A stretch of DNA of 64,000 bases, from positions 15,536,642-15,600,641 of the forward strand of contig OZ037770.1 in assembly GCA_964035545.1 (NCBI GenBank). The letters are read 5' to 3'. Source of the stretch: Bugula neritina. Taxonomy: Eukaryota > Bryozoa > Gymnolaemata > Cheilostomatida > Bugulidae. The notes under the pieces are model-generated. The model was not told where the DNA came from, made no database searches, and saw only the letters and a program-made list of their open reading frames with translations. Shown here piece after piece: positions 2,237 to 47,667 of this stretch. The translations under genes and the position numbers were made by a program. How positions within the stretch are numbered: the first letter of the stretch is position 1; each line of letters starts with the position of its first letter.

Positions 2237-5200
2237 TCACAGCACGGGCTCAATGATGTCGTTGTCCAGTACCGAATTAGCTTCCTTAAGATGATCACAT
2301 GACTGAGCTCTTCGATGATTGGCTGAAATTCTAGAGAAAAATGGCTGAAGGTCTCGCAGGGAAGAGATGGTCTGTTGCTGCAGTAAGAGAGCTGCATTCT
2401 GATTGGCTGGAAATCTGTGGTTTCCAAACTACAAGTAAACATGAAAGAATAACCTCAGTTCCTCTGTGTTGAATGCAGCACTAGGATAATATATCAAATA
2501 TACAGAGAAGATGATAATGTAGTGTACAGATGGTAGAGATAGACAAACTGCGTAAACAACTTTACCTTAAATGACATTCGCTGGCAGATGTTAGGCACAT
2601 GAGCAGAAAATTTAACAAGAGTCTCTCCATTGGCTACAGAAACCTCATCATTGACAGTAGGCTCTTTCTTATTGGCTGGTCGAGTTTGGTGATGGCCATT
2701 GATTGGTCGAGCAAATTCCAGGTTGGTATCGTCCACGCCACAGAACATCCAAACATAACTACAAGAGAAGGTATAGAGGTAACTATAAGAGAAGGTATAG
2801 AGGTAACTATAAGAGAAGGTATAGAGGTAACTAGAAGAGAAGGTATACAGGTAACTAGAAGAGAAGGTAACTACAAGAGAAGGTATAGAGGTAACTAGAA
2901 GAGAAGGTATAGAGGTAACTAGAAGAGAAGGTATAGAGGTAACTAGAAGAGAAGGTATACAGGTAACTATAAGAGAAGGTATAGAGGTAAATGTAATATA
3001 AATTCATAAAAGATAACACAGCAATTCATATCTATTATGAAACTCACTGCTGAAAGTCTGGCACCAGGTGAGCTGGCAGGAAGGTGACGAGGTCAAGGAG
3101 CTTACAGGCAGCGAGGTAGAGGGTGAGCCAGGAGGCAGACTGGTGGACGTTGACGTCAGTCGGGTGAGAGAATGAGTCTAATTCGCTGACTCGGCTCAAC
3201 TGTAGTCTAGAATATACAGTAATACGGTATAGAGTATACAGTAATACGGTATAGAATATACAGTAATACGGTATAGAATATACAGTAATACGGTATAGAA
3301 TATACAGTAATACGGTATAGAATATACAGTAATACGGTATAGAATATACAGTAATACGGTATAGAATATACAGTAATATGGTATAGAATATACAGTAATA
3401 TGGTATAGAATATACAGTAATGACATAATTATATTGTAGAGAAGTACAGTATTGTGGTGGATGTATGTAGTAATACTGTCAGGGGGTACAGTCTAGTGGT
3501 GGATGTATGTAGTCATACTGTGAGGGGGTACAGTCTAGTGGTGGATGTATGTAGTAATACTGTGAGGGGTACAGTCTAGTGGTGGATGTATTTAGTCATA
3601 CAGTCAGGGGGTACAGTCTAGTGGTGGATGTATGTAGTCATACTGTCAGGGGGGTACACAGTCCAGTGGTGGATGTATGTAGTCATACTGTCAGGGGGTA
3701 CATTCTAGTGGTGGATACTCACTCATCATCATCAGATAACACCAGCTCATCTTCTATGTACACCATCACGTTCACCTGAAAGCAACAGAATATACTAGTC
3801 AGTAACAGGCAGTACATTATTCAGTGTGAGGTTACAAAGAGTACGGTAAGCTATACGTGTATTGTCACTCTGGTCTTTCAGTTAGATGTGAAATAAACTC
3901 AACCTTGACCCAGCAGTGTATAATCAGCTCTGAGAACACAACTCCAATAACATAGTATTACAGCTGAAGCTAACTGCTGCAGGTAGATTAAACTAGTCTG
4001 TTGGAGCAGAGCAACTCACCAGCTCGGTGACGATGGTGGGCCAGAGAGAGGTGAGGGCACTCGGGGACATCCTGAGGAGCAGAACCCGGAAGCAGAGGAA
4101 GACTTGAGTCAGCACGGCGGGTGACTGGTTGAGTCTCAAGTTCTCCGCAAGTCTCTCTACAACAGCAGTCAAGTCTCTACTCAAGTACTCAAGTCTCTAC
4201 TCAAGTACTTAAGTCTCTACTCAAAACTCTCTTCTCAATTGTCAAGTCATTTACCCTGTGTATCTCTACAGGAGTCACTTACCCTGTATATCTCTACTCA
4301 AGTACTCAAGTCACTTACCCTGTATATCTCTACTCAAGTACTCAAGTCACTTACCCTGTATATCTCTACACGAGTACTCAAGTCACTTACCCTGTATATC
4401 TGGCATGTAGTTTTTATAGTAGTCCAGATCCCCACAATAAATAAGGAAAGACAACTTCTTCAGATTGTGAGCTCTCTGCACAAACTCCAAGTCTTTGTTA
4501 CCAAACAGCTGCATGGCTGCGTTCCCCGCCAGCATGAACTTGGCTACAAAGGAAGTGAGAGATTCGTGTCATATTGCGTGCTTCATAAATACTGCAGAGC
4601 AAAGCATTAAAATATTCTTAATTATTTCAGTTGGTCACATTGTCCTTCAACCTATTAATGGTCCTTATTTGAATATAGCCTGAGTATATGCCTCAGATAG
4701 TCCTGGTTATGGCAGAGTACAACAGTAACTAAATACTTCCATTAGTGTACTATCAGTTAACCAAAGAAAACTGCTGCACATCCAAGACAGTGGGAAATTC
4801 CAAGACAAGAGGAAATTCCAAGACAGTGGGGAATTCCAAGACAAGGGGAATTCCAATCCGGGAAATTCCAAAGTGGAGGTTTTGGTTGTCTCCCCGCTGG
4901 ACAAAGAACAGAGAGCCAACATAACAGCTCACTTCTGCTCTCACAGTGAGTGATAAAGCAGAGGGTTGTAGTGCACAGCCTACCCAGGAGGTCTTTCAGC
5001 ATGGCCTTCTCATGAGTCACCAGGTTGTCTGTGAGAACCTTCCAGAACTGCAGAGACTGAGTATCCATCTTAAAGAAGTCAGCAGAGAGTAAGATGTCAT
5101 ACACGTCCCGTCTCCATGTGCGTCTCGTGTACTGGTAGGAACTGATGCTAGCTAGTAACTTAGAGCTTGACTGGAAGCAGGACATGTTTAGTAAGCTGAA

Positions 5201-8200
5201 ACATACAATGGGGTGAGTTAACAGTTGTGGGCTGGCATGTATACAAGGGGAGAAAGTATCAAATTGACTTTCTTTTTAAAGTCATCATACAAATTGTTTG
5301 AAATATTTATTTAAGCCCTAATAAAAGTGCTGCTATTAAAATAAATATTTTCTAAAGTAATATTCCATCCCACTGTGTAGAATTTACACAAAGTCTCTGA
5401 AAATATTAATGGTATGAGACACAACTTCTTAACTAAAATAAAGTGACAGTAATATTCTAAACTAAGGTACTACATCTAGTAGCTATAGCAGTCTAGAGTT
5501 ATTACCTGTGGTTTCTGAGGTAAGGAAATACTCTACTAAGAATATTGTTCAGTAGAGATGTTACTTTGTCTTTATCTTCACTCGGATAAACTACGTCCAG
5601 TAGACCAGCTGTTACCTAGCAACACAATAACATAATCTTACTCTTACAGTTACCCTAACTAGCACAGGTTTACTCTTACAGTTGCTCTAGCTAGCACAAG
5701 TTTACTCTTACAGCTACCCTAGCTAGCACAGGTTTACTCTTACAATTACCCTAGCTAGACCAGGTTTACTCTTACAGTTACCCTAACTAGCAGAGGTTTA
5801 CTCTTACAGTTACCCTAGCCAGCACAGGTTTACTCTTACAGTTACCCTAGCCAGCACAGGTTTACTCTTACAGTTACCCTAGCCAGCAGAGGTTTACTCT
5901 TACAGTTACCTCGGCCAGCAGAGCTAGAGCGTGTGAAGTGTACTCTGACTCGTGCTCCTCAGTTGAAGTCTCATCAACTGATATCCCGGGTGCAGTAGAA
6001 CTCATTGAGTCTGATGCCATGTTGTAGAGCTCATTGCTAGAATCTGATGACGGTGCTTTGACCTGATGATATGAAAAATATCATGTGGTTAGAGTTGTAA
6101 GCCACGACCTTTAAGACTGCAACTGTGCCTCTCACCATATGAGTTGAGGACAAAGTAAAGAAGGGTGAATATAAAACACTGGAAACAAACTCATAGTGCA
6201 TCTCAAGCAGAGAAACTTCAACACGATATTGATACTGAGACATAGGATAGAAAACTTTCTGGAATAAACATGAGTTCTACAGAGTACTGAGGAGATGTGT
6301 ATAACATACTAGACACACTGTGTAACATACTAGACACACTGTGTATATCATACTAGACACACTGTGTATAACATACTAGACACACTGTGTATATCATACT
6401 ATACCCACCTTCACCGTGTAATTCTTTCTGATTGTCCAAGAGCTGGCCTCCAGTTGCGACGAGACAATTTGACAGCAGGCTTCCAGAACCTTCCCTACGA
6501 TCTCCTGAAAACATTTGTATACAGAATACTGTACTTTGGTGAAGAATTGGACATCTAAATCAAACACCTGACACCAAGAGAATGATAAAATGGAATTTCA
6601 GTAATATTCAGTGAGTAGATTGAAGGTTGAGTAAGTGACTGAGTGATGCTATTATCTCATAACCCAGTCCTAAAGTTACTGATGGCGGTAACCCAATAAA
6701 TGTGTCATAGTAATGACAGCAGACCAAAGCCTAAGGCTTTAACTTGGTAGAATTTACCAACAAAGATTTTACCTGCAGATCCTTGATGACTTTCTTGTCG
6801 TCAAGATTTCCGAGTTTATGTACGAACTCCGTCACCGTCCTAAAAGAGACAGAAGGAAGAATATATTGTACAGTTCTAGTACAAACAGAACACAGGATGA
6901 GTTGAAGTTGGTCAGTAACTTACTCTAAGAGTAGCAATATTCCAGGGGCGGGTAGTCCGAGCTGCAAACAATGCTTGAGCAGCACGCACACAGAACTGAG
7001 GCTATTCTTAGCTATAGAACCCGTCTTGACGATGTAGCCTTTGAGAAACTTGAGACAACTGAGTTGGAGAATAACCTGTAGGATCAGAAAGAGGAAGCTA
7101 ATGCTACGAAGGGAACACAAACTACAAACATATCTCCTGTAATCCATACACTCTACACAACTGAGACGGGTTCAGTAGACTGAGTTGGTTCCACATGCAG
7201 TGACTTAGCAGACGGACAACTGCAGACGTGGCATGACGGGAGCAGACAACTGCTGGTAACATGACTAAGCTATGTGCAGGTGAACAGGGGATAAGGTAAC
7301 AGGTAGACTAAATATTTACATAATATGAAACTATAAAGGATTATTAACTTTGCCAATTTCATGTATCAGCAAATTTGATTGGTTAAATATAGACACTAGA
7401 ATTAGAGAGTTGAAGATACGCATGACATATATTGTTATTAAGTAAGTCACATGATGTACTAGCTGCAGGCAATCTGGTAGACAACTCCTCAACACAGAGA
7501 GAGGAGGTAACTTGGGAATTCCATGACTTACAAAGGTACTGTAGAGTTCACTGCTACTAGACGTTTAAATACATGACATGCAGGTGTCAACAAGCTCATA
7601 ACCAAAGCATGCGTATAGAGAGAAACTGAGCCAACCCTGGCATTATCTCTCCACTAACACAGAATTATATAACTCTCATCTTTAGATGGTATAGATGTTA
7701 GTTTCTGAGTGAAATCGTATGATAATAAAAGATGTCATTTGGTCTTGTTTGAAAAATCTTGAAAGTAGATTAAAATTGTAGTCAAAGCTGTTGAGGAATA
7801 TTCTAAAGTGTGTTAAATGTGCAGCTCAGTAGTTCTCTGCAATTAACTTGGTAATGTGGCACAGGAAATGCTTGCGCAGTGTCTCTCTACAGGAAGTGGT
7901 GGATTTACCTGATCCGTCTGCGAGAGGCAGTTAGTGTAGACAAGATGGAGCTGTTAGATACAGTATAACAACATTACGTCACAGCTATTACGTCACAATG
8001 TAGCATGATGTTATTATGGCAGCACATGAAGCTGTACAGTGGCAGCGTTCACCAGATAAGAAGTAACATGGGTGAGTAGGCAGTATACTGACAGCGACTT
8101 TACAAAGATTCTTACTTTTCTAAATTTCAAAAGTTTTTTTTCAACAAAATAATATTTAGTCAATATGAAAACACATTTTCTGAACAGCTACAGATGAAAG

Positions 8201-11200
8201 CGTAGCTCAATAGAAATTAAATTTGTTAGGCAGATTTTAAGTGGAAAACATATTATAGCAACGTTTCCCAATCCACACCAATACATTAGAAACACATCGT
8301 AGAAAAGTCACTCTCAGCTGTGGTTAGTTAAACCCATTTCTTACAACAGCCAGTGATGTGTCACTATTTGATTGGTTTACATATTTACTTTTGAACCCTG
8401 CAACAGAATTGTATATTAGGAAAAACCATGTAGTTCAACTACTGGTCTCATATTCAGGAGTTATCTTTTCATTATTCTCTCATTATATCTAGAAGTTATC
8501 TTCTTATTATATCTGGGAGTTACCCTCTCAAAATATTTAGAAGTTATCCTTTTACTATATCTAGGAGTTATTCTCTTATTACATCTAAGAGTTATCTTCT
8601 CATTATATCTAGGATTTATCCTCTTAATTGCCTATAGTGCATACAAACAGTTACATAGACACATTCTACTCAATTTCTGAGTGCAGAATACCAGCATGAG
8701 AGATTGATTATCCTTTCCAGTACTAAACTAAAGCATTTAATTAAAGTTTGCTCCAAATATATCAAGTGGAGATAACAGAGAAGGTAAAATATAGATACGA
8801 CAGCAAGCTCATCCTGGTATTTTACAAACAAAGAGTTACAAGTACATTCAGGTGTCTTACAACATGTAGTGAGAGCAGTTGCTACGGCAACCAACTGTTA
8901 GGAAAGACAACTCTTAATTAACATATTTTCATATTTGCAAACCTAAAGTCTAAAACTCTTAAATAAAATTAAACTAATGAAAATTGGCTACTGCATAATC
9001 CATGTTCATTTACAAACCTGCACCATCTGACAGATTCAGTTTATTTACTATGACACCCACTTTTAGCGTCTTGTCATAACTGGCAGGTGTGACATTTGAC
9101 ATTACTGACAGGTGTGACATTTGACATTACTGACAGGTGTGACATCTGACATTACTGACAGGTGTGACATTTGACATTACTGACAGGTGTCACATTTGAC
9201 ATTACTGACAGGTGTGACATTTGATATAACTGACAGGTGTGACATCTGACATTACTGACAGGTGTGACATTTGATATAACTGACAGATGTCACACCTGTC
9301 ATAACTGACAGATGTCACATGACACACACACTAGTGACAAGCATCCAACAGCTACCTGACACCATCAATCACTTGCTAACTGAATAACCAGACACCTGTC
9401 ACTCACCCTGGTATTAGTCTGATGATCAGTGGCAGGTGGTTTCTTCATGACAACAGCCAGTTTGTCCACTATAGTGTCCATGGGCAAGGCTTTAATGGAT
9501 ATCAGCAGGTCTACCAGAGTAGATTGAGTGAGGTGGGCTGATTTTATCACATCCTGACTGAAACATCATGGATAGTAATATAGGTGAGACTGTGTCTAGT
9601 CCAACCTGCTGTTGTGTATGTTGAGAAGTTCTCAGAAAAATCTAGACAGAAATTAGCTAACCTTTTGCTACGAAATGTAAAGAAGTTGCAAAGTCAAATT
9701 GTCAAAGCCTAAAGCATTTAGGTTTAGAGTGATATTTAAAGTTGCTGGCAAGCACTGTTATTTGAAAAGAGTTAGGGATTAAAAAGGTAACAAGTGGGTA
9801 TAGGCTTGGCTGAATATATATGAATATCTGAGAAAACTGAGTAGTGACTTATTAGGCAAGCAATGAATAAACAGCTATCAAGTTATACTAATATATTTTC
9901 CATATAATTTACATTTTTTAGCTGTGGTTATAGCAAAAACAAAGCAATTCATTAAAAGGCATCAAAGATATAACTTCAGAGATTTACGAAACCAACATGA
10001 ATAATAACAAAGTAATGGATTTCTAGCAAATAAAATTAATAAGAGTACTATTACAGCAGTACACTAAGATAAGAGCACTATTACAGCAGTACACTGAGGT
10101 AAGAGCACTACTACAGCAGTGCACTGAGATAAGAGCACTATTACAGCAGTACACTGAGGTAAGAGCACTATTACAGCAGTACACTGAGGTAAGAGCTGTC
10201 ACTGTTAAAACATGCAGGTGTGAAAGATTTGGCTGAGAGTGTGAATTTTATTACTGAAAATTTGTTTGCAAGCATTACACGCAAATAGCCTTATATCATA
10301 TTTCCTTAACACAGAAACAGTAATCTCACTGTACAAATTGCAACAGTTGGAAGTTGTGTAGAATTTTGATATCAGTGCAAAACCAACAACGTCATTGATT
10401 TCAAATACAGAGAATTTTAAGACTGACAACTTTTTGTTTTGTTTGTCATAGAAAGATTTAAGAGTCAAGAATTTTAACGGAAGTGTCTGTGAAACATAAG
10501 CTGGTGAAGGTAGGAAGCAGATTTACAGTACAGGAAGTAGTAAGGAGCTTTAGATGTATATGAGTCAAGGTAAAGACATACAGGTAAAGGTAGCACTGTA
10601 GTCAAGATAAAGACATACAGGTAAAGGTAGCACTGTAGTTAATGTAAAGACATACAGGTAAAGGTAGCACTGTAGTCAATGTAAAGACATACAGGTAAAG
10701 GTAACACTGTAGTCAAGATAAAGACATACAGGTAAAGGTAGCACTGTAGTTAATGTAAAGACATACAGGTAAAGGTAGCACTGTAGTCAATGTAAAGACA
10801 TACAGGTAAAGGTAACACTGTAGTCAAGGTAAAGACATACAGGTAAAGGCAACACTGGGTAATTAGTTAATACAATGCTGTAACAGGTAAATAGAACAAG
10901 AGGTGAATGCAGGTAAAAAAGGTGACCGCAGGTAAAAGAGGTTAAACTCACCAGACTAGTCTATAGCTAATGAATACAACAGAAAGATATACAGACGTAC
11001 AGACATACTATGGTTAACACAGCTACATAAGGGGCTTACAATACAGTGGTGATAGAAAGATGGACTACAAGGAGGTAAAAACAAGGGAATTATTCAATAA
11101 CTGTCTGGGCTCCATGCTACAATATATAGAAAGGATAAACCAAAGTTACCAAGAGGGTACTACTGAGCAAAATGGAAGATCTAGAAACAGTGAGAGAATG

Positions 11201-14200
11201 TAAGAGAAGACAAACCTGTCACTCCAGACCACTGAGACAGACCCAAGCAGCTCCTCCGCGTAGTTGTGTAGGATGGGACTGAAGTACTCGTTGACCAACT
11301 GTACCACCTGCAAGGGGAGCAGAGACTATGAGTAACTATGGTGCTGTAAGCCCCGCCCTGCTGTAAGCCCCGCCCTGCTGTAAGCCCCGCCCAGTTCTGC
11401 GTACCTAATATACTATTGCACTAACTCATGGCTGTTCATAAAACGATTAAGATTCAGAAACTCTGCTGTGAGCATAACTACTGGTACACAACACAGCCAC
11501 ACCCACAGCACAGAGCCACGCCCACCACCACGCCCACAACACACAGCCACGCCCACAGCCACGCCCACCGCCACACCTACAACACACAGCCAACCCCACA
11601 ACAGAACTGCCTGTAAGGACAAAGATGAAAATTACTTTGGAGTTGTCAGCCCGTTGGTAGACCCTCCAGAGGTTGCTGACGCTGGCGAGGATCTTCGGCA
11701 GAATACTGAGGAGGCTGTCCCTGCACTTTACTCTGGGGTCATAGTAGACCTTACCTGTGCGATACAGTGCATGTATTACAGTATAAGACATGTATACTAC
11801 TCTGGGGTCATAGTACACCTTACCTGTGCGATACAGTGCATGTATTACAGTATAAGACATGTATACTACTCTGGGGTCATAGTACACCTTACCTGTGCGA
11901 TACAGTGCATGTATTACAGTATAAGACATGTATACTACTCTGGGGTCATAGTAGACCTTACCTGTGCGATACAGTGCATGTATTACAGTATAATACATGT
12001 ATACTACTCTGGGGTCATAGTAGACCTTACCTGTGCGATACAGTGCATGTATTACAGTATAATACGTGCACTTTACTCTGGGGTCATAGTAGACCTTACC
12101 TGTGCGATACAGTGCATGTATTACAGTATAATACATGTATACTACTCTGGGGTCATAGTAGACCTTACCTGTGCGATACAGTGCATGTATTACAGTATAA
12201 GACATGCACTTTACTCTGGGGTCATAGTAGACCTTACCTGTGCGATACAGTGCATGTATTACAGTATAAGACATGCACTTTACTCTGGGGTCATAGTACA
12301 CCTTACCTGTGCGATACAGTGCATGTATTACAGTATAAGACATGTATGTTTGGTAAAGTATAATGAAATACAATACCTTATATCATGTGCAGTAACAAAG
12401 TTAAAAGCTAAGAAACACGGCCTACTAACAGGTATACCTGCGGCGTCATGGTCCGCACTCGGGTTGCCCCCCTTTCTGGTGAGGGGGTTGAAGACGCTGA
12501 CCAGGTTAGAGAAGATCTGACCGGTGCTGATTCCAGGGGGTTTGGAGTCCTCCAGAGACTGGGAGGCAGACACCTCCATGAAGCAGAGGTGACAGATCAT
12601 GGTGAAGTCTTCTAGGATCTGCGGCACGTAGTCCGGGGGCAACACGCTCCTGTGATATTATGGTAGCTGAAGTTTAGAGAGTAAAATCAACAAACAGGTG
12701 TGGATTAAAGGTGTGGTTAGGTAATTGCTTGAGATTTCACTTTGATAGTAATTTGGGTGAAAATAGGCAAGGCAGTTGAATCATATTTATAAATAAAGTA
12801 TGGGACAGGAACATGTTTGCTTTATCAATTCACATCACAATGTAGTCACTCTCACTGTCACATCACAATGTAGTCACTCTCACTGTCACATCACAATGTA
12901 GTCACTCTCACTGTCACATCACAATGTAGTCACTCTCACTCACATCACAATGTAGTCACTCTCACTGTCACATCACAACTAAAGTAGTCACATCACAATG
13001 TAGTCACTCTCACTGTCACATCACAATGTAGTCACTCTCACTGTCACATCACAATGTAGTCACTCTCACTGTCACATCACAATGTAGTCACTCTCACTGT
13101 CACATCACAATATAGTCACTCTCACTGTCACATCACAATATAGTCACTCTCACTCACACCACAATGTAGTCACTCTCACTGTCACACCACAATGTAGTCA
13201 CTCTCACTGTCACACCACAATGTAGTCACTCTCACTCACATCACAAACGGATTGTCAAAGTTGGCACAAATTCTGTCGAAGATGCTGCAGACGGAGGAGA
13301 CGACTGACTGCAGGAAGTTGGCTGTGATTGGCTGAGAGATGACGTGGGGGAGAGAGTTGTTGATAACGGAGAGCCAGTGGTGATGTACAGCTGCCAGTTT
13401 GTCCTCAGAGAGGTGTGCTGTTATACTAGAGAGAAGGGAGGGGTGGGAGAACATCCGCCTTTTGAACAGGTGGGGAGCTAAGCCTACAGTCAGTAGTTAG
13501 AACAGTACAGTATTACAGCAGTATACTGTAGACATAGCAGAGTATACTGCATACATAACAGAGTATACTGCATACATAGCAGAGTATAGTACAGCAATAG
13601 AATAGTATAATACAGTAATAGAATAGTATAATACAGTAATAGAATAGTATAATACAGTAATAGAATAGTATAATGCAGTAATAGCAGAGTATAATACAGT
13701 AATAGAATAGTATAATACAGTAATAGAATAGTATAATACAGTAATAGAATAGTATAATACAGTAATAGAATAGTATAATACAGTAATAGAAGAGTATAAT
13801 ACAGTAATAGAAGAGTATAATACGGTAATAGCAGAGTATAATACAGTGATAACAGAGTATAATACAGTAATAGAATAGTATAATACAGTATTACAGAAGT
13901 ACCATTGTCATGTAATAAACAATATTGAAGTCACGAAGAGATGGAGGACAGAAAGGCGAACCTTTGTTGGCAGCACTCTGTCCCTCGTGAACCGTCTGCA
14001 GTTTAGACTCCAAGAGGATGAGACCCTCGGTGAGCAGCAGACACTGTCTGAAGAGTGAGACGTTTGCGGTCGGATCATGTAGTACTCCTGTAACAGTAGA
14101 GTAAGCAACTCCTGTAACAGTAGAGTAAGCAACTCCTGTAACAGTATAGTACAGACAACTCCTGTAACAGTGTAGTACAGACAACTCCTGTAACAGTATA

Positions 14201-17200
14201 GTACAGACAACTCCTGTATCAGTAGAGTAGACAACTCCTGTAACAGTAGAGTACAGACAACTCCTGTAACAGTAGAGTACAGACAACTCCTGTAACAGTA
14301 TAGTACAGACAACTCCTGTAACAGTATAGTACAGACAACTCCTGTAACAGTAGAGACAACTCCTGTAACAGTATAGTACAGACAACTCCTGTAACAGTAT
14401 AGTACAGACAACTCCTGTAACAGTATAGTACAGACAACTCCTGTAACAGTATAGTAGAGACAACTCCTGTAACAGTATAGTAGAGACAACTCCTGTAACA
14501 GTATAGTAGAGACAACTCCTGTATCAGTATAGTAGGGACAACTCCTGTATCAGTATAGTAGAGACAACTCCTGTAACAGTATAGTACAGACAACTCCTGT
14601 AACAGTATAGTAGAGACAACTCCTGTATCAGTATAGTACAGACAACTCCTGTATCAGTATAGTGCAGACAACTCCTGTTATCCTCACCTAAACCCTGCAG
14701 ACGCTCAGCTCTCTCCTCCATCAAACTCTGGAGGTGAAAGACGCAAGTCTTGACAACTTTGTACTTGTGTAGGATATCCACGAGGTAGGAGGGGAACCCC
14801 TTGGGGGAGTCAGCGAGGATGTGACAGAGGTCAAAGGTCAGCGCTGACAAGAGATGCACCGACTTGAGTTGCACTTGACTATTCCGTGAGATGGAGTTGT
14901 CGCCTCTCTTGTCTATGGTGTTGCTATGGTAACTGCAATACAACAAATACTAAGATATAGATAGAGTTATCTCTCCCCTCTTGAATACACAGTTGCCATG
15001 GTAACTGTAAAGAGGACAGACAACTACTAAGATATGGACGTAGTCGACTACGCAGAGTATTACCTTCTCCAGAAGTAGAGACAGAGAGTAACAATGATCT
15101 CTAGCAGTCTAACGTTCCTCAGAGATACGAGATCCTCCTGGGAGAGGTCACTGTAGAAGTTGTGTCCCTCTAGAGATCGAGTGTGTCTAGCTAGTAGACT
15201 GAGCACCTTGTTATCAGAGCAGGTGGAGGTGGTGAGTTTGGAGAGAACAAGGCTAGGCTCTACTTGTATTATTTTCTACAAAATATTATAATATATATTA
15301 CACATAACATACAGTACTGTACACTGTATATACTATATACTATACTGTATACTGTATGCACCATACATACTATACTATATACTATACAGTACTGTACACT
15401 GTATATACTATACATACTATATACTATACAGTACTGTACACTGTATATACTATACATACTATATACTATACAGTACTGTACACTGTATATACTATACATA
15501 CTATATACTATACAGTACTGTACACTGTATATACTATACATACTATATAGTACTGTACACTGTATAAACTATACATACTATATACTATACAGTACTGTAC
15601 ACTGTATAAACTATACATACTATATACTATACAGTACTGTACACTGTATATACTATACATACTATATACTATACAGTACTGTACACTGTATATACTATAC
15701 ATACTATATACTATACAGTACTGTACACTGTATATACTATACATACTATATACTATACAGTACTGTACACTGTATATACTATACTATACTATGTACTATG
15801 CAGTACTGTACACTGTATATACTATACTATATACTGTATATACTATAGTGCAAGTTCTAATAACTATACCTGAATAATACTGAAGGCAAACAGCACACGC
15901 TCCGTATCATAGCACTGGTCATATATGAGAATAAAGCCCAGGATACCTGCAGTACCTTCACTCGGGCTATCAGCAGCCACAGCTTCAGACTACAACACAC
16001 ATCAAAGAGACAGTGATAAAATAATAGTGAGGTACACGCGTAGTGATGACATCATCAGAACACGCAGAGCAGAATAGCACCTGTTGTTGTCTGTCACCAG
16101 AGGAAGCAGTAGACTCTGTGCTGTTAGCAGAAGACAGGCCACTACCGCGACGACCTTCTAGAGCATTCTCTTTCACCTCTGACCTTTCAGCTACCAATTC
16201 TTCAGCTGTATCCGTGTCGTCTGCCACCACAGCACCTTCCGGAAGACAACCAGTGTCCTCCACCAGAGGGGGTGGCTGCTCCACCACCCGGTGAGGCATG
16301 TTGGTGTCCGGCAGCGGAATGGCTGTGCTGGCACACGGCAGCGAAGTCGCCTTCACGTCTTCATTATTTGCTGACTCAGTGTCATCTTTGGAGGTCAAAC
16401 GCTTCACTTTAGACTTTCTCTTCGGTTTGACTGGCGGCTGAGCAGGCGGGGCTTCATTAGATTCGTCCACAGACTTCCTTTGACTAGAACTTTGATCTAC
16501 ATCATTAGATTTACTGCTGACATCGTTTCCTGTGCCATCAGGCACCACCGGGCAGCGGTCAGGTGGTGTGGCCATCTTGTCTGAAGTATTTTGGGAAGAG
16601 TCAGAGGGTGTTTCCGCTCCAAACACGATGCCTTCTTGTTTACACGTCTCTTTATCCAATCTCTTGGCCTTGGAGACTATAGACTGGTAGCTCTCCCCTT
16701 TATTAGAGACAGCTGTAGACCTGTTCATTACAGAAGGTAAGAGTTTGAACGGCAGAACAACATTGTGACACTTGAAACAAAGTGAACTCAGATTGAAAAC
16801 AAAAAAAAATAGTTTGAAAAGTATCAATCAAACTGTTCGAAGGAGCTGAGGCTAGAAATATTTAGGAGAATTAACTAAAGTTAGTAGCAGCCAACATTCA
16901 AGGTGATCATAGTCATATGCAATTATTTAGATAAAATGGCTAACCAATTTCTTCTTCTTTCTGCATGTTTCACAACCACTTCCCATTCAACAAGTTTCAA
17001 TTTCAAAAATAAAAGAAAGTAAAAGCTGATGTTAAAGTAGAGTATTTATGAGAACTTAGAAGAAGCAGATGACAAGAAGCAGACGACAGGAAGCAGATGA
17101 CAGGAAGCAGACGACAGGAAGCAGACGACAGGAAGCAGAAGACAGGAAGCAGAAGACAGGAAGCAGACGACAGGAAGCAGAAGACAGGAAGCAGAAGACA

Positions 17201-20200
17201 GGAAGCAGACGACAGGAAGCAGAAGACAGGAAGCAGACGACAGGAAGCAAATGACAGGAAGCAGAAGACAAGAAGCAGAAGACAACATGACTCACCATCT
17301 GCTCTTCAGAATCTCGTGAGGTGTGAAGCCCTCAAAAATCAGATGATCCAAATCACTGGAGTTACCGAAAGGGTTGAGGGCAAGTCCGGCACTCCGATAC
17401 TGAGTGACATTCTCACAGTCTAAGGGCTCCGTCACCAGCTGTGAAGGAGTCACGTGACCTTCCTTGGTTACTACAGACTGCGTGATTGGTCGAACTGGTC
17501 CTGTCTTGCTGCCACCTGGTGAATACTTGTATGCGTCATGTGAGAGAGAAGGCAATTGCTAACAGCTGTTTAACACTTGAACAGTTTAATTACAGAGAGC
17601 TGCCATATTATACACAACTTGATAATAAACTGACTATAAGTAAACAACTGACAATCTGTGTATACATAAAAATTACGCAAATATTGATGTGGGAGATGAG
17701 AAGACATGTTAACTGCAGGCTATTATACTACTTATGATGGAATGTTCACCATACAGTGTTATATAAACCATATAGTGTTATATAAACCGTACCAGTTTTC
17801 CGAGACACCCTGCCATCACTGCTAATAGACTGTATGCTCTTCTGGGCCGTCTCAAGAGACTGTGCGAGTAAATCTTCCTTGGTGGGTGTCGGCTCTTCTG
17901 TCTTTCTGTCTGTGAACATACAATACTAGTTGCAGTAGATACCAGTTATTACTAACTCAAGTCTCAGTAGATACTAGTAGATACTAACTGCGGTGTTGAA
18001 CACTGATACGGCTCGTGTCTGACTCGAGGAGGTGTAAAAGGAGCGGCTCCAGCACTCTGCTGATGTCATCACACTGTACGCAGTGAACTATCCAATCACG
18101 AACCACTTCCTGTATAATCTCCGCCTCCCCCATTAAAGCAGAGAGGGCCACCTAGTAATATATACTGAGTTACTAGTAATATATACTGAGTTACCAGTAA
18201 TATATACTGAGTTACTAGTAATATATACTGAGTTGCTAGTAATATATACTGAGTTGCTAGTAATATATACTGAGTTACTAGTAATATATACTGAGTTACC
18301 AGTAATATATACTGAGTTGCTAGTAATATATACTGAGTTGCTAGTAATATATACTGAGTTACTAGTAATATATATTGTGTTACTAGTAATATATACTGAG
18401 TTACTAGTAATATATACTGTGTTACTAGTAATATATACTGTGTTACTAGTAATATATACTGAGTTACTAGTAATATATACTGTGTTACTAGTAATATATA
18501 CTGTGTTACTAGTAATATATACTGAGCTACTAGTAATATATACTGAGTTACTAGTAATATATACTGAGTTACTAGTAATATATACTGAGTTACTAGTAAT
18601 ATATACTGAGTTACTAGTAATATATACTGAGTTACTAGTAATATATACTGAGTTACTAGTAATATATACTGAGTTACTAGTAATATATATACTGTGTTAC
18701 TAGTAATATATACTGTGTTACTAGTAATATATACTGAGCTACTAGTAATATATACTGAGTTACTAGTAATATATACTGAGTTACTAGTAATATATATACT
18801 GTGTTACTAGTAATATATATACTGTGTTACTAGTAATACATACTGTGTTACTAGTAATATATACTGAGTTACTAGTAATACATACTGTGTTACTAGTAAT
18901 ATATACTGAGTTACTAGTAATATATACTGAGTTACTAGTAATATATTTTAATGAATTAGGAGTTATGTTACCATGAGAACTTGCTGTGTAAAGGCATAGT
19001 CTGTTTGCGAGTCTCGAGTTTGGTGCCAGAAATACGTGAACTTCCTGTAAGCCTCGAGTCTGACGTCTGCAGCAGAATGAAGAGAAGTATGAGTGTAAAG
19101 TTATGATAACATATATCTAAGTATGCACAGGACATATAGTAATGTTCTTAGATATATTTTAAAATGACTAAGCCTTTCAATTATTCAAACAATCTTTAGC
19201 AAAAGCGCTACAAATGTTTTCACAATGCTTCTTATTATAGTCAGATGTTATTATGAGTTTATCACAGTTAGACAATAAGTATATTAATATGCAGCTGGTC
19301 TATTAATATACACCTAGTCTATGAATACACAGACAGCTAGTCTATGAATAGACAGACAGCTAGTCTATTAATAGACAGACAGCTGGTCTATGAATAGACA
19401 GACACACCCATATTCTTATGAATCAGATCTCTAATCATTATAGTCTGTAAAGATTCCCTCTTCGCGTCATCAGAATCAGAATGAGCAGAACTGGTGAAGA
19501 GAAGGGCGGATAGGAGCAGACTAGATTCTCTGCTGAACGCCAACTCTTTGATATCCATATGAGACCAGACATGGGCAAACAAATCCTACAAACAGGGGAG
19601 ATAATAAACAGAGAGTGTTTATACTTTGTAATGGGTCACAGAAGAAGTATTACAGAGAAACGGTAACTCACAGAGAGATGAGAGAGTATATACAGTGAGA
19701 TGGAACTGTCAACCACGGGACTTATCCTCAACACGGGCCGGTGATCAGTGAGCGAGAAACTGTCTATAGATGGCGACACACTTCCTCTGTGTGACCTATA
19801 TTCCTTCTCCTCGCCTGATAGGTTGGCCAGTCTAACTAGGTCAATCAGGAATGCTGTGCTAATGAGCTTTGTCTGCATATTGCTGACTCTTTTACCGACC
19901 GCTGTATCGGACAGTAGCTGGATCCATTCTGGAACACCGTCTGGAGGTTCTACATATAGATACCTAGATCTTAGAATATGTAGATATAGACATCTTAGAA
20001 TATGTAGATATAGACACCTTAGAATATGTAGATATAGATACCTTAGAATATGTAAATACAGATACCTTAGAATATGTAGATATAGACACTTTAGAATATG
20101 TAGATATAGATACCTTAGAATATGTAGATATAGATACCTTAGAATATGTAAATACAGATACCTTAGAATATGTAGATATAGACACTTTAGAATATGTAGA

Positions 20201-22736
20201 TATAGATACCTTAGAATATGTAGATATAGATACCTTAGAATATGTAAATACAGATACCTTAGAATATGTAGATATAGACACTTTAGAATATGTAGATATA
20301 GATACCTTAGAATATGTAGATATAGATACCTACACCTTAGAATATGTAGATATAGATACCTACACCTTAGAATATGTAGATACAGATACCTGCAGGAACT
20401 GATGATTTGGGAGAACAAACGGGAAAACTGGAGATTTCTATGAGCAGGAAACAGCAAGACAGCAGAGCATACTTCCTGTTCTCTTCATCCATTTCCTCTT
20501 TAGAGTCGACAGAGAGAATAGACGAGCAGAGAATTTCTTGTAAGGAAGGGACACTATCCTGTACGGTGACCTCAGCAGTGCCTGTAATTCAGCATACTGT
20601 AGTGAGTACTGTATACACTGTAGTGAATACTGTATACACTGTAGTGAGTACTGTAGTACACTGTAGTACACTGTAGTGAGTACTGTAGTACACTGTAGTG
20701 AGTACTGAAGTACACTGTAGTGAGTACTGTAGTACACTGTAGTGAGTACTGTAGTACACTGTAGTGAGTACTGTAGTACACTGTAGTGAGTACTGTAGTA
20801 CACTGTAGTACACTATGGTAATGTGTTATGAACCTTCGTCTGCTGAGTGAGTGTCCCGTGGCAAGGCGACGCTAACTAGACGTCTGCACAGCATGAGTAC
20901 GTGCGTCATATCACCCAGACTTGTGTTGGCTATGTTCTCCTTCAGCATGGTCAGCAGGTTGTACAGTAGTCTGGGAAGATGCACTGTCTGTGTCTCTACA
21001 TAACTCTCCTGTAACACGGCAGACACGCACGCAATCATCAACCTAGTCTCAGGTGCTATTCATTGGGGCAAAGTTGAAACTTTCCAATGTCATCATAAAA
21101 CAGAAGCAAATACATCTTTACTATCCATATTACACATTGGCCCGAGGGGGGGTCAACTGTTTATTAAAACACAGGCTATATATAGAGAAGCTCAAGAATG
21201 GGTGGATTAGTTTCAAGTTGCAGACATGAAGAGTAATGAGAAGATACTATAACTGAGCTCACACCTGTATTGCTGCAATGTCACATTCAATGCATCGATA
21301 GAGATCTAAGTTGGTGTGAAACCTAATGAGTAGGTTATTATGATACATACAAAGGTAGTAGGTACTTTAGTAGTTGACATTTCCAGACAGGTGTCCTGTC
21401 ATACGGTTACTCACCAGTGGAACAATAGAGAGGAGCATATTGGCAATGTCACAATACTCTGACATGTCCAGACAGGTGTCCTGACGGACCTCACTAGGCC
21501 AGAGCACCTTCTCATAAACGTCTGCAAGAAACTCCCACAGGAAATGAGGTTCCAGAGTGGCGAAGAGGAGGTTACACGTCTTCAGCAACTCCGAGAAGAG
21601 TTTTGGGGCGAGTTCTGTCGTGCTAAAGATGTGTCAAAAGGAGTTTTAAAATAACTGCATGAGTCCTGATTGAGAAATTAAATAAAACAGATTGGATAGT
21701 GAGTAGAGGTACCTGGTAGGTGATGTGGAGAATAAGTTCAGGTCAATGTTAAGTGACTCGGCTATACTGCAGGTACACAGGTCTGGACTGGAGAGAAGCT
21801 GTTTCTCTGTGTGCAGAGAGTAGAACCTCCGCACGAACCTGAACACATTGACTAGAATGTCCTCCAGAATCACAGAACCTATCTCTACTCTATCCAGGAG
21901 ACTGATTATTACTCGCAGAGGTTTCATCATCTCGTAGGAGTCTGTAGACATGCTGTGGAGATGTGACCTTAGACTCTGTACCAGTAGCCTACAATATGAA
22001 CATACATTAGACTCTGTACCAGTAGCCTACAATATGAACATACATTAGACTCTATACCAGTAGTCTACAGTATGAACATACATTAGACTGAGTACCAGGA
22101 ATCTACAGTATGAACATACATTAGAAGTAAAGCTAAGAGACATCTATATACCAAACTGCACGTTGAAAAGGTAAGTTACACTTACTTTCTAGAGTGTACG
22201 TTGAAGTACTCCAACTCCGGTTCACTCGCAGAGCTGCTACCGCTGTCGTTTCGCTGTCGCTCAGTTTCGGAGTCGTTCCTCGCTTTCTTTACCATCCTAC
22301 CCCCTTCACAATACACACCACACACATGTACACAATACACAAGCAATAGAATATTGTACAGAACATCTGGAGAAGAGAGAGTCGAGGATGACACACTACT
22401 GTGTTGCTATGAGATGATTGGATAAACTGACACTGACAGTCACTTGTATCCCACTGCTGTAAAAGGAAGACTGCTAAGGTAATAAGTAGAACAACAGCTT
22501 ACCAGTTGCGGTGACCCCCAGCAGCCACCCGTAGAGTCTCCTGTTCAAGGACATATCCCGTCTCAACAAGACCAGCAGAGCAGACTCGATCACGTCTGAT
22601 TGGTCGGGTCTGCTGAGTTGACTGCCGTGGAAGGGGAAGGCAACTGCTAATATGTCCAGAGTGTTTCTCTGTACCAGGACAGCCGAGTCCTCCAGACAAC
22701 CCCGGAGAGCTAAAACCTGGACAGACAGACAGAGAG

Positions 22737-22773
<37 letters not shown>

Positions 22774-37495: not shown

Positions 37496-37530
37496 CACAC
37501 GCACGCACGCACACACACACACACACACAA
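37443..37530. repeat. (AC)n/(GCAC)n microsatellite
   Basis: A compound run of acac and gcac units in intergenic DNA, a typical slippage repeat. It accounts for the cysteine/valine-rich ORF on the opposite strand. Confidence 0.95.
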
Positions 37531-37956
37531 CACACCAGCCTATTCTTATATGATATACTATAGTATGCAGTATGGCATTAACTAAAATGTCAAAATATAC
37601 ATAATATAGTAAAATGTTATAAATGGTAGTGAAAAAATGCGTGGTCTTTGGACACAAAAACTTCTAATTAAATTTATGAAATGAATATAACAAGATCTTA
37701 TATTTTATTTTGCATAATATACTTATGTAAAAAATACACTATATTATATTATATTTGTGTTGATGAACATATAAGAATTTTTATTATAAATGATTACCAA
37801 ATAAAATATATTTTCTGTGGAATTTGGATATCATAACGCTACATGTAGAGCAGCCGATATAATGTTGATTAATATTCATTCACAGAGATATAAAGTTCAG
37901 GATTCATATAGTGCAATAACTTCTACTAAGTTTGGCTGTAGAGATCATGCAGCACT

Positions 37957-42832: not shown

Positions 42833-45800
42833 ATGGCAGCCAAACACAGTTTTGTTTGCTTGCTCAATCAACAGACATTAATTCACTCAAAACACAAGTT
42901 GTTTGTAAACAGACTCTACTGCAAGCATTTGTTGGTAAGTAGAGTTTAGAATTCTGTTTCTTTTAATGCTAGTAGAATATTGATAGTGCTTTTTGATTTA
43001 GCTTGTAAGTTTCACTTTGTATCTTTGGCAATTGAACTGTACTAAGAACCAAAACTACTAAATTTTGCTCTCTGGAAACCATGTATTTACAATGCAACCC
43101 TCAGGATGTGTAACAATTCTTATGTTCAAAGTTACTTATGTGTGATACAGACGCCCAGCTACATCACCTGTTCATCAACAGCTACTCACTGTGACAGAAG
43201 AACTCAGTCTAAACGTAGCCTGTCTACCCACTTTCCACGTCTACTAACTGGACACAGCAATTTGTTCACTCAAACAGTGAGAACTAATAATTCAACTCTC
43301 TATTCTAGAAGATACAAATCTACTGCTCCACCAGTTCAGGTGAGACTCAACAACTCATTTGAATCAACAGTTCACTTGTCTTCAATGTTTTAATTGATTG
43401 CCATTTTCACTTTATTTCCGTTGGTTTATATCCTGACGTAAAATTACCCAGCTAGAACTATGAGGCTGATATGAAAGTGTTTTATTGGTGCATTCTGATA
43501 TATCAGCAAAGACCTCTACGCCATATGTTCTCTATTCTGTTGCAGTCGAGTGTTCCTCAGGTCGAATATATCCCAGAACCACCCACCCCAGTGACGGATG
43601 CATACGAACAGCTATCGGGGTTGGCGGAGCCCACATTATCTAGTCTGGGGTTGTGTAACTACACTCCTGCGGGTGGGGTGCAAAAGATTCTGGAATGTAT
43701 GCATATATATGGAGACATGCCGTGGTGGGCCACCCTTACCGCTTGTAAGTATTCACTGTGTAGAGTAGGTATATACCGTGTAGAGTAAGTATATACTGTG
43801 TAGAGTAAGTATACACTGTGTAGAGTAAGTATATACCGTGTAGAGTAAGTATATACCGTGTAGAGTAAGTGTACACTGTGTAGAGTAAGTATATACTGTG
43901 TAGAGTAAGTATATACTGTGTAGAGTAAGTATATACTGTGTAGAGTAAGTATATACTGTGTAGAGTAAGTATATACTGTGTAGAGTAAGTATATACCGTG
44001 TAGAGTAAGTATATACCGTGTATAGTAAGTATATACTGTGTAGAGTAAGTATATACTGTGTAGAGTAAGTATATACCGTGTATAGTAAGTATATACTGTG
44101 TAGAGTAAGTATATACGGTGTAGAGTAAGTGTACACTGTGTAGAGTAAGTTATTTAGTAAGAGGTGGGAGTGGTATTGAGAGAGACTGCTAATTATATTT
44201 CCAGTTGCCGTTGCGTTCAGAATGGTGATCATACCACTGCAAGTGTACACCATGAGGGCCTCCATCCACTACCAGAATCATATGCCCACCGTGACCAAGT
44301 ATCAGGAGAAGATTGCGAGGGCAACGGAGCTGAAGGATGTTCAGACAGGTTATTTTATATATTATTATATTATACAGTGTAATAGTATATTATACAGTGT
44401 AATAGTATATTATATAGTGTAATAGTATATTATATACAGTGTAATAGTATATTATACAGTGTAATAGTATATTATATACAGTGTAATAGTATATTATATA
44501 CAGTGTAATAGTATATTATACAGTGTAATAGTATATTATACAGTGTAATAGTATATTATACAGTGTAATAGTATATTATATACAGTGTAATAGTATATTA
44601 TATACAGTGTAATAGTATATTATATACAGTGTAATAGTATATTATACAGTGTAATAGTATATTATACAGTGTAATAGTATAATATACAGTGTAATAGTAT
44701 ATTATATAACTTATATATACACTATATATTGTGTTGGTTTCCTTCAGCCCTCCTATTCTCTGGTAAACTACAGCATCACATGAATACACACAAACCCAGC
44801 GTATTCAAGGGAGTTGGATCTCTCTTCTACCAGGTACGTCTGTACTCTGTGTCTGCAGTCAGCCTCACGTAGCATTCAGTCAGGTCACGTCTCATGTGTA
44901 CACAATATACTCTCACCTGTACTACTCTCACCTACACTACTCTCACCTACACTACTCTCACCTGTACTACTATCACCTATACTACTCTCACCTATACTAC
45001 TCTCACCTGTACTACTCTCACCTATACTACTCTCACCTACACTACTCTCACCTACACTACTCTCACCTACACTACTCTCACCTATACTACTCTCACCTAT
45101 ACTACTCTCACCTGTACTACTCTCACCTGTACTACTCTCACCTATACTACTCTCACCTATACTACTCTCACCTACACTACTCTCACCTATACTACTCTCA
45201 CCTACACTACTCTCACCTACACTACTCTCACCTACACTACTCTCACCTACACTACTCTCACCTATACTACTCTCACCTATACTACTCTCACCTATACTAC
45301 TCTCACCTTTACTACTCTCACCTATACTACTCTCACCTTTACTACTCTCACCTGTACTACTCTCACCTGTACTACTCTCACCTGTACTACTCTCACCTAT
45401 ACTACTCTCACCTATACTACTCTCACCTGTACTACTCTCACCTATACTACTCTCACCTATACTACTCTCACCTATACTACTCTCACCTACACTACTCTCA
45501 CCTATACTACTCTCACCTATACTACTCTCACCTATACTACTCTCACCTATACTACTCTCACCTATACTACTCTCACCTATACTACTTACCGTCTGTCTGT
45601 TACTATTATGACGGCCATTTATCTACAATATAAGAGTATTTCCTCTCCGTCTCCCGTCTCCAGGTGCCGATATTCCTCTCCGTGTTGGCCGGTATCCGGG
45701 GGATGTCCTCACTTCCTGTGCAGAGTATGACGACCGGCGGGCTCTACTGGTTCCCTGACCTCACAGTCCCTGACCCCTACTTCGCGCTGCCAATATTGAC

Positions 45801-47667
45801 GGCAGCGACGCTATTGGCTAATGTCGAGGTACTGTCAGCCAGCTTAGTAGATGACGTGACGTCGCGCAGACGTGTTTCTGTGTTACTTCAGCTCAGAGTA
45901 AACTAGTGCTGATATTAGCAGAATCTTCTTGTGGTAGAAATATATTAGAACATGGTATATATAGATGTTAAGATGTGTGTTTATATACTTTGCTATGAAG
46001 TGCACTATTTATACCCTTTTCCAATTGAGTATTAGAGTGGTTTCTTCAAGTCGCTGATTGAGTTTGTTGTTGCTGTGAGGTATTTCCTGTTTCCTGTTTG
46101 TACAGCTCGGAGCTGACGGAATGAGAGCAAAGAGTCTGCCTTCTAAAACCAAGTGGATAACTCGGGGAATGATTGGGTTGGGTGTTCCCGTGATGATGTC
46201 CTTCTCCCCCTCGGTATGGCGTTGTAGCTGCACACCGTATAGTAGTAACATTGTATATGTACACTGTATAGTAGTAACATTGTATATGTACACTGTATAG
46301 TAGTAACATTGTATATGTACACCGTATAGTAGTAACATTGTATATGTACACTGTATAGTAGTAGTAGCGTTGTATCTGCACACTGTATAGTAGTAACACT
46401 GTATCTGTACACTGTATCTGTACACTGTATCTGCACACCGTATAGTAGTAGCGTTGTATCTGTACACTGTATAGTAGTAACACTGTAGCTGCACACCGTA
46501 TAGTAGTAACATTGTATATGTACACCGTATAGTAGTAACATTGTATATGTACACTGTATAGTAGTAACACTGTATATGCACACTGTATAGTAGTAACATT
46601 GTATCTGCACACTGTATAGTAGTAGTAGCGTTGTATCTGCACACTGTATAGTAGTAACACTGTATCTGTACACTGTACCTGTACACTGTATCTGCACACC
46701 GTATAGTAGTAGCGTTGTATCTGTACACTGTATAGTAGTAACACTGTATCTGTACACTGTATAGTAGTAACATTGTATCTGTACACTGTATAGTAGTAAC
46801 ACTGTATATGCACACTGTATAGTAGTAACATTGTATATGTACACTGTATAGTAGTAACACTGCATATGTACACTGTATAGTAGTAACACTGTATATGTAC
46901 ACTGTATAGTAGTAACATTGTATATGTACACTGTATAGTAGTAACACTGTATCTGTACACTGTATAGTAGTAACATTGTATATGTACACTGTATAGTAGT
47001 AACATTGTATCTTCACAGGCCCTCGGTGTCTACTGGCTCACCTCTAACATCATGGCCGTCATTGTTATCAACATCCTCAAGATTCCCACCATCAAAACCC
47101 GTCTTCAGATTCCCGACTACGCCGTGAAAACAGAGACTAAATTCTCAAAGGAGTCGCGGAAAGATAGCGTATTGTCCACAATAACCTCCAGTGAGCATGC
47201 TCCACATTTCCTCTGTCATTGTGTAGTGTAAAGTAGCAGTTACCTTCTCAGTTTAGTCTGAGATATCTTACTTGTCACTATATCCCATGTGACAGGAAGT
47301 CACTTAGCACCACGTCTCTCTCATCACTCTGTCCTTCACTAGAGTAACGACCTCCTCCATTGTCAGATAGTCTCATGGCGTGTGTAACTTTCCAACTTCT
47401 GGAAGTCAATTCAGTATAATAGTTTACTCAAATAGAATAGACACAGCCTCTAGCTAGACGGAAACTGCTGTCATTCTCTCCGAGTTCTTTATACTCGTGT
47501 CAAGGTCGTATTCCTGTTATTTACTTTCAGCTTACAAAGAGAAACGAATCAAAGCCACCATCAGCGACGCAGAGAGTATAAACGCCAAAGCGTTCCACGA
47601 GGCGGGAAGAGCTAAAATTGTGAAGACATTTAAATATGATCCAACAAAGACGGTGAAAAACAGCTAA
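42833..47667 (+). CDS. OXA1L: Mitochondrial inner-membrane insertase OXA1L (YidC/Oxa1 family)
   Basis: Nine exons with consistent phases: 42833-42934, 43151-43339, 43546-43744, 44205-44348, 44748-44833, 45664-45828, 46106-46213, 47019-47190, 47531-47667 (TAA), giving 433 aa, a normal family length. Oxa1 inserts mitochondrially translated and imported proteins into the inner membrane. The first ~100 residues are rich in Ser, Thr, Arg and Lys with almost no acidic residues, as expected of a mitochondrial presequence. The insertase core is clear: MPWWATLTAFAVAFRMVIIP (TM1), VPIFLSVLAGIRGMSSLPV, TTGGLYWFPDLTVPDPYF, LPILTAATLLANVELGADG and ALGVYWLTSNIMAVIVINIL. The C-terminal tail is lysine-rich and would bind the mitoribosome in known relatives. 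Four introns are largely minisatellite. Confidence 0.95.
43745..44152 (+). repeat. 20-bp minisatellite repeating the OXA1L exon 3 donor
   Basis: About 20 copies of gtaagtatatactgtgtaga. The array starts exactly at the donor of exon 43546-43744, so nearly every unit repeats the GTAAGT hexamer. Variants include gtaggt and gtacac. It fills most of intron 3. Confidence 0.92.
44372..44703 (+). repeat. 20-bp minisatellite in OXA1L intron 4
   Basis: About sixteen copies of gtgtaatagtatattataca, some with two extra bases. It fills most of the intron between exons 44205-44348 and 44748-44833. Confidence 0.9.
44902..45585 (+). repeat. 15-bp minisatellite in OXA1L intron 5
   Basis: About 45 copies of tctcacctatactac with variation at two positions (cctgt, cctac, ccttt). 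Because 15 is a multiple of three, three plus-strand frames stay open for ~245-278 codons. None is a gene. On the opposite strand each unit contains GGTGAGAG, a donor-like string. Confidence 0.93.
46216..47010 (+). repeat. ~29-bp minisatellite filling OXA1L intron 7
   Basis: About 27 copies of gtatatgtacactgtatagt plus agtaacatt with shorter variants. It begins right after the donor GTATGG at 46214 and ends just before the acceptor at 47018. A higher-order duplication is visible: segments near 46360-46490 and 46600-46730 share the same series of variants. Confidence 0.9.

Follow-up and report, generated by a model that had tools for sequence, protein, structure and literature searches.

Minisatellite arrays that reach and cross exon-intron junctions in Bugula neritina, and how far chance founding in introns may explain them

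Why should tandem arrays of short repeats stop at, or run across, the boundary between an exon and an intron? The question is raised by a stretch of 64,000 nucleotides from the bryozoan Bugula neritina, here called the window (contig C6, positions 15536642-15600641, in the 215.8-Mb eukaryotic assembly G000 of 295 contigs), in which minisatellites lie on splice sites of three genes: a DOP1 gene, a BAK-like gene and OXA1L. A sequence-only reading of the window had proposed that DNA is amplified at splice junctions, or that redundant splice sites are selected, as an undescribed genome-wide feature of this species. Here we report that the feature is real, that it is seen in genes on six contigs and that both 5′ and 3′ boundaries are affected. 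On balance we favour the view that these are ordinary, locally born minisatellites, mainly intronic, whose contact with junctions is near that given by chance founding and calls for no special splice-site process. What is distinctive is their density, the reduction of introns nearly to array and a dinucleotide signature that the arrays share.

The exons of the window genes were placed by reading both strands, after which a script checked the splice dinucleotides and the open joined frame; a single open frame runs across all junctions of the 51 introns in the three models, 50 of which start with GT. The frame-checked model of DOP1 (2237..24639, minus strand) has 38 exons, 37 introns and 2251 amino acids, and its family assignment comes from Pfam matches to Dopey_N and TPR_DOP1_M, with DOP1_C marginally below the cut-off. 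Its intron 1 (24310-24498) is best modelled as GC-AG. The BAK-like gene of the Bcl-2 family (28172..32005, plus strand; Pfam Bcl-2 match, 5.8e-9) is a partial model of 8 exons and 447 amino acids, open at its 5′ end, and the frame-checked OXA1L (43106..47667, plus strand; 8 exons, 414 amino acids) is assigned by a PDB match to OXA1L. Which copy of a repeated splice site is used was judged from frame and homology, that is from sequence and not from RNA-seq; in DOP1 intron 23 and BAK intron 3 the period is a multiple of 3, so that other copies would also keep the frame. Throughout, an array is a call by Tandem Repeats Finder (TRF) with a period of at least 10 and a score of at least 60. About 450 kb separate the window from the end of its 16.05-Mb contig.

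Arrays so defined make up 11,589 of the 21,452 intronic bases in the window gene models (54%), compared with 104 of the 9,347 exonic bases and 576 of the 33,201 bases of other window DNA, part of which may hold unmodelled genes. At least one array is present in 30 of the 51 introns (22 of 37 in DOP1), and in 18 of these 30 a junction is crossed or approached to within 5 nt. All 11 arrays named by the sequence-only reading were recovered by TRF, each with an edge on a splice site: the acceptors of DOP1 introns 36, 23, 20, 13 and 6 and of BAK intron 2, and the donors of DOP1 introns 33, 30 and 22, BAK intron 3 and OXA1L intron 2. Its statement that junction arrays occur in three unrelated genes on both strands is likewise confirmed. 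Junction arrays absent from that list were found in DOP1 introns 10 (both ends), 12, 15 and 29, at the acceptors of DOP1 introns 33 and 35, and in BAK intron 7 and OXA1L intron 6.

In many of these arrays the unit carries bases of the adjoining exon. Exonic bases recur in DOP1 introns 6, 19, 20, 22, 23, 30, 33 and 36 and in BAK introns 2 and 3, over lengths from 3 to about 30 bases; chance may account for the shortest (all DOP1 features below are on the minus strand, those of BAK and OXA1L on the plus strand; a slash marks the junction). The 69-bp array of 9.0 copies across the DOP1 intron 23 acceptor (11729..12347; CACAG/GTAAGG) has 26-33 exonic bases per unit, and 20 are present both in the 38-bp array across the DOP1 intron 6 acceptor (21969..22125) and in the 30-bp array across the BAK intron 3 donor at 29129 (29109..29501). 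The unit of the 32-bp array from the DOP1 intron 30 donor (5638..5910) holds about 14 exonic bases resembling CTCTGCTGGCCGAG, 10 of them identical in a row, and at the intron 33 donor, crossed by a 36-bp array (4273..4401), the unit holds 11 exonic bases, and the exonic AGATATACAGG recurs within the intron. Seven exonic bases per unit were counted in the 28-bp array across the DOP1 intron 22 donor (12830..13246; TTTGTGAT/GTGAGTGAG) and in the 29-bp array across the BAK intron 2 acceptor at 28963 (28729..28970; ACTCAG/GTATAA), four to five in the 26-bp array that fills DOP1 intron 20 up to its acceptor (14084..14678; CTGTTACAG/GAGT), and three both at the DOP1 intron 33 acceptor and in the 24-bp array at the DOP1 intron 36 acceptor at 2759 (2756..2990; CTTGTAG/TTA). 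In DOP1 intron 19 the acceptor and exon start are present in a diverged two-copy duplication (14933..15063; own-intron score 11), which TRF does not report and which is probably older.

Inspection of the arrays revealed no exonic bases in the unit of the 21-bp array that ends exactly at the DOP1 intron 13 acceptor (18152..18946; TTACTAG/GTGG) or of the 20-bp array from the OXA1L intron 2 donor (43745..44150; GTAAGTATATACTGTGTAGA). Some introns consist of little else than array: a 24-bp array covers 99% of DOP1 intron 10 from donor to acceptor (19954..20391), a 33-bp array 98% of BAK intron 7 (31077..31780) and a 29-bp array 99% of OXA1L intron 6 (46223..47017), ending 1 nt from the acceptor. 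TRF also reports a 22-bp array reaching the DOP1 intron 35 acceptor at 3207 (3208..3421) and a 23-bp array from the DOP1 intron 29 donor (6296..6408), both new to the list, and a 42-bp array that begins 6 nt inside the DOP1 intron 35 donor (3444..3716).

The exonic copies were quantified by scoring the 20-mers of each intron's own exons against that intron, with a cut-off of 11 and an expectation taken from other exons. In the window this score was reached at 2 of 51 donors, where 0.2 were expected, and at 4 of 51 acceptors, where the expectation was 0.08; one of the four acceptor matches, OXA1L intron 4, lies 9-20 bases inside the exon, short of the border, and is no clean boundary match. Control exon segments 31-50 nt from the junction reached 11 in none of 51 cases on either side, although the donor-side control has a slightly elevated mean score (permutation P 0.015). 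For the window this test speaks against array edges extended by chance as the full explanation. The earlier suggestion that duplications began across the junction is thus borne out for some arrays, at donors and acceptors, in unrelated genes and on several contigs, by the exonic bases that are repeated in introns.

The arrays are not confined to this locus. Myosin heads were located by Pfam search, and 13 genes on the large contigs C1, C2, C4, C6 and C9 were modelled with a purpose-written spliced profile aligner; 158 of 179 introns were kept and 21 with weak flanking exons dropped. Arrays are present in 34 of the 158 and occupy 9,081 of 85,808 intronic bases (10.6%), the window introns being about five times richer (54% of bases). 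In 7 of the 34 array introns an array crosses a junction or has an edge no more than 5 nt from one, compared with 2.55 expected from uniform placement (P 0.003). Four of these junction arrays include exonic bases as judged by eye (positions on the gene strand, in coordinates of the joined loci): m8 at 5962 (C4:2244001-2254000; TGTTGTAG/GAAGAGTA, about 13 units), m12 at 282 (C6:9222001-9232000; ATTACAG/ACGTATGTA), m13 at 4609 (C9:4253501-4268500) and m11 at 2124 (C4:7585501-7595500).

A genome search with positions 1-3000 of the window, which skips common words, reported one other place, an array on C7 found as two overlapping matches. By eye this array ends at the acceptor of a Rab6 exon, whose translation equals solved Rab6 over 38 of 38 residues. 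Two loci were chosen arbitrarily. One of them (L053, C3 at 10.0 Mb) has a 30-bp array of 11.3 copies from the donor of an exon that we take to be ECH1-like, and an intron of a presumably MPP5-like gene is nearly all array, its edges 7 and 12 nt short of junctions placed by eye; the other (L052) holds a single large array, with no gene context seen. Junction-reaching arrays are therefore present in genes on contigs C1, C3, C4, C6, C7 and C9. The idea of a genome-wide feature holds in so far as the arrays extend to myosins, Rab6 and an ECH1-like gene, but a need for a special process at junctions finds no support.

How often an array should touch a junction by chance depends on what is thought to have been placed. 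When the finished array is placed uniformly in the present intron, contact within 5 nt in the window is in clear excess (18 of 30 introns, 10.6 expected, P 0.0001). A second null places the founding unit uniformly on the collapsed intron, in which the array is reduced to one unit, and lets it straddle the ends, because the finished array was not what arose. Under this model the pooled arrays reach a junction in 26 of 80 cases, with 21.3 expected (P 0.09), and span it by at least 4 exonic bases less often than expected (10 of 80 vs 15.2, P 0.05); when the collapsed length is at least 80 nt, touching is seen in 15 of 66 (10.5 expected, P 0.07) and spanning in 6 (7.3 expected). A third null, which gives ancestral introns no less than the median length of array-free ones, predicts spanning by at least 4 exonic bases closely (7 vs 6.8 for 36 window arrays, 3 vs 2.6 for 44 myosin arrays). 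Edges at junctions are divided about equally between donors and acceptors (window, 10 of each; myosins, 4 donors and 3 acceptors), which fits a position-blind process. The premise that random intronic satellites should rarely behave in this way does not survive the uniform-founding comparison, and the inferred need for a junction-targeting process goes with it, leaving an excess of edges exactly at junctions. The check proposed along with that premise, the distance of array edges from splice sites, gives a divided answer: edges are closer than uniform placement in present introns allows and exact edges are in excess, whereas total touching under the collapsed null is not significantly raised.

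These results suggest a simple course of events. A small tandem duplication, with a unit mostly of 14-70 bp, would arise anywhere in a short intron, its ends included. Where it straddles a junction it would be tolerated, the exon-proximal copy of the site still being spliced and the mRNA unchanged; duplications within exons would be removed by selection. Slippage or unequal exchange would then multiply the unit, with the intronic copies becoming homogenised and the constrained exonic copy not. In the window genes, unique intron DNA may have been lost until splice signals and array were nearly all that was left. We infer the order of these events, the tolerance through exon-proximal splicing and the disappearance of unique intron DNA. 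Most of the feature would probably follow from many small duplications in short introns together with tolerance of the duplications in which the exon-proximal site is kept.

Several results weigh against this account. Edges lying exactly at the junction (-3 to +5) number 16 of 80, compared with 6.5 under the collapsed-intron null (P 0.0003), of which the window contributes 12 vs 4.7 and the myosins 4 vs 1.8 (P about 0.1). Under the third null, touching is in excess (window 19 vs 9.7, P 0.0003; myosins 7 vs 3.9, P 0.08), and the collapsed length itself hinges on which TRF period is kept, 15 or 33 in BAK intron 7 for example. The density of arrays is far higher in window introns than in other window DNA, which simple neutrality does not explain, and 17 of the 30 array introns in the window have a non-array remainder below the length of the shortest array-free intron (79 nt), so that such introns are not simply a normal intron plus an array. 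In the 158 myosin introns the exon-copy test is near chance (donors 5 of 158 vs 1.0 expected, acceptors 1 of 158 vs 1.3, controls 1 and 3 of 158), so that clear boundary-spanning duplication is demonstrated mainly in the window. The sole strong myosin acceptor match, in gene m2, resembles a duplicated exon: in the intron at 2376-3376 of locus L036 the exon start recurs with a score of 16 over 18 bases, perhaps as a duplicated alternative exon.

The exact-edge excess is also what would be expected if duplication favoured DNA at exon-intron borders, where splice-site breaks or co-transcriptional RNA-DNA hybrids might, for instance, set it off. Such junction-directed mutation would account for contact above uniform placement of finished arrays in both gene sets, for the own-exon copies in the window, and for the Rab6 array that ends at an acceptor and the donor-anchored array at an arbitrary locus. 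An annotation-free test of array edges leans the same way for the 44 myosin intron arrays, where at the lowest threshold 24 splice-like sites face inward and 12 outward (P 0.03); the 32 arrays that lie elsewhere than in modelled introns, too few to give the test power, have 11 inward and 8 outward (P 0.3). Because the myosin placement and edge results lean towards it, we rate this explanation slightly higher than we otherwise would, and our own slightly lower. It nevertheless seems doubtful to us, given that spanning arrays are not above uniform founding and that the total excess of touching is not significant. As a proposal, we attribute the exact edges to a coding constraint that would hold the exonic copy fixed as the intronic ones change in concert; removal of unique intron DNA as far as the splice signals may have contributed. 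In DOP1 intron 30 the exonic bases of the unit have diverged and are clipped off by TRF, and across 39 arrays the first and last units are less like the rest (identity 0.778 and 0.790) than internal units are (0.827; P 0.06 and 0.07).

A different kind of explanation starts from the sequence of the units, which was compared among the 56 of 80 arrays with at least 4 copies, 28 in the window and as many in the myosins. With array-free introns as the reference, the dinucleotides TA (1.71-fold in the window, 2.03-fold in the myosins), AC (1.71, 2.17) and GT (1.68, 1.25) are enriched and AA (0.43, 0.44) and TT (0.35, 0.46) depleted; array base content resembles that of array-free introns, and the bias is absent from the non-array parts of the same introns. 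On either strand TATACT is found in 18 of 56 units (1.7 expected) and TACAGT in 16 of 56 (1.4 expected). A shuffle that keeps dinucleotides yields 14.5 for TATACT, which is thereby accounted for, and 9.2 (maximum 15) for TACTGT/TACAGT compared with 19 observed, of which about half is accounted for. These shared hexamers, and the 27 of 1540 array pairs alike at E 1e-3 (reversed-sequence control 4; best two pairs 77% over 528 bases and 83% over 234 bases), might be taken to mean that all the arrays were copied from a single family of mobile elements that inserts in introns. We give this very little credence, since units differ in both length and sequence, likeness mostly follows the dinucleotide bias, and the 3-kb window probe, in a search that skips common words, reported the Rab6 array as its one other place. 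A sequence-biased amplification directed at introns in this lineage, founding minisatellites in transcribed introns, favouring alternating DNA rich in TA, AC and GT and poor in AA and TT, and replacing almost entire intron bodies in some regions, is a tentative suggestion that we consider rather unlikely. If it were true, splice sites would have as many as a dozen decoys of equal quality beside them, and the intron would rely on its array for minimum length. Selection for redundant splice sites, retaining arrays with a donor or acceptor in the unit, is as little credible as a mobile family. Junction-reaching arrays do carry more sense than antisense sites (donors 11 of 26 vs 4, acceptors 11 of 26 vs 4), an excess that follows from where these arrays lie, and for 12 of the 27 junctions touched, the array contains a decoy whose score equals or exceeds that of the real site. 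The 54 non-junction arrays have no clear sense excess (donors 10 sense and 16 antisense, acceptors 11 and 6; 318 and 309, and 479 and 309, in 1482 array-free intron segments), and although the array contains a site scoring within 1 nat of the true one at 15 of these 27 junctions, there is none at the other 12. On these grounds the selective reading proposed earlier finds no support here. Of the 27 touched junctions, 8 have a recorded period (the short one where TRF offers several) that is divisible by 3. This is near chance and gives no indication that the additional copies become part of the mRNA.

Were the introns themselves born from arrays, an exonic tandem duplication carrying AG/GT having turned into an intron and then grown? 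The authors of the lancelet globin study proposed this route (PMC3087553), and parts of our data accord with it. In the window the non-array remainder has a median of 56.5 nt in array introns and 142 nt in array-free ones (P 0.010), and more than half of the array introns fall below the 79-nt minimum given above; with their array reduced to a single unit, these would no longer be normal introns. Myosin array introns are less often shared between paralogues (11 of 34 vs 63 of 124, P 0.08), AG/GT is present at both ends of DOP1 introns 23, 29 and 30 and OXA1L intron 4, and in DOP1 intron 30 GTAAC opens both the intron and the next exon. Most introns, however, do not have AG/GT at both ends, and those with arrays have it just slightly more often (4 of 25 when touched and 5 of 64 overall, compared with 10 of 145 in the array-free class). 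Four of the seven junction-reaching myosin arrays lie in introns shared by paralogues, and an intron position common to paralogues means that the intron predates its array. In the myosins the corresponding values are 461 nt in array introns and 366.5 nt in array-free ones, and none is below the shortest array-free intron, at 42 nt perhaps an aligner error. We therefore regard birth of introns from arrays as improbable, and prefer locally born minisatellites in existing introns.

The arrays have a precedent. In reports on lancelets, tandem repeats spanning exon-intron boundaries in Adh3 and globin genes were named 'mirages'; the Adh3 units are 10-72 bp long, splicing is regular, length and somatic instability were observed and a model of intron gain was put forward (PMC3087553), and mirages were later extended to PGBD5 and troponin C (PMC3902484). 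The Bugula arrays resemble the mirages of Adh3, the globins BflGb6 and BflGb9, troponin C and PGBD5 in being minisatellite-like, in affecting both boundaries, in carrying splice signals in many copies and in unit lengths that overlap those of Adh3, and exonic bases are likewise included in units (DOP1 introns 6, 23, 30 and 33, BAK intron 3, m8, m12, m13 and m11). The feature called undescribed by the sequence-only reading is thus already known in kind. Unlike the mirages, it is found here in DOP1, a BAK-like gene, OXA1L, several myosins, Rab6 and an ECH1-like gene of a 216-Mb genome, with up to tens of copies and whole introns of array. Splicing and instability were measured in lancelets, whereas here the arrays are known from the sequence of a single assembly, in which the exon-proximal copy would give an open, homologous protein.

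Two further systems can be compared. Intron gain by the AGGT model, described for a potato RdRp (PMC4974935), similarly involves a tandem duplication carrying splice signals; here, in contrast, introns shared between paralogues are older than their arrays and AG/GT at both ends is uncommon. The C. elegans repeat CeRep25B (PMC4039745) is also a short-unit tandem repeat concentrated in introns, and is a sequence family tied to alternative splicing; the Bugula arrays differ in that the unit mostly changes from one intron to the next and some arrays cross the junction. Our literature search recognised no description of boundary-spanning arrays outside lancelets. What were, in the lancelet reports as far as consulted, arrays of a handful of genes are here arrays of many genes, and a null model can account for the majority of their positions. 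Such introns may serve as natural splicing experiments, with up to 12 acceptor copies predicted to be as good as the real one in an intron, one of which is presumably chosen.

Other elements of the window and of the assembly deserve brief mention. On the minus strand at 58107-63445 are long open reading frames resembling gag and pol of a Ty3/gypsy-type element, and at 53729-54793, also on the minus strand, a 354-amino-acid open reading frame resembles the end of what we take to be a Penelope-like element, with a presumed GIY-YIG-like tail. Myosin matches on the small contigs C90, C114 and C115 were left out of the myosin set. On these contigs, as on C213, C189, C52, C283 and many others with kinesin matches, the motors are encoded in a single frame in which TAA and TAG are frequent and TGA hardly occurs; the contigs look like ciliate contamination, with a code in which TAA and TAG would be read as glutamine.

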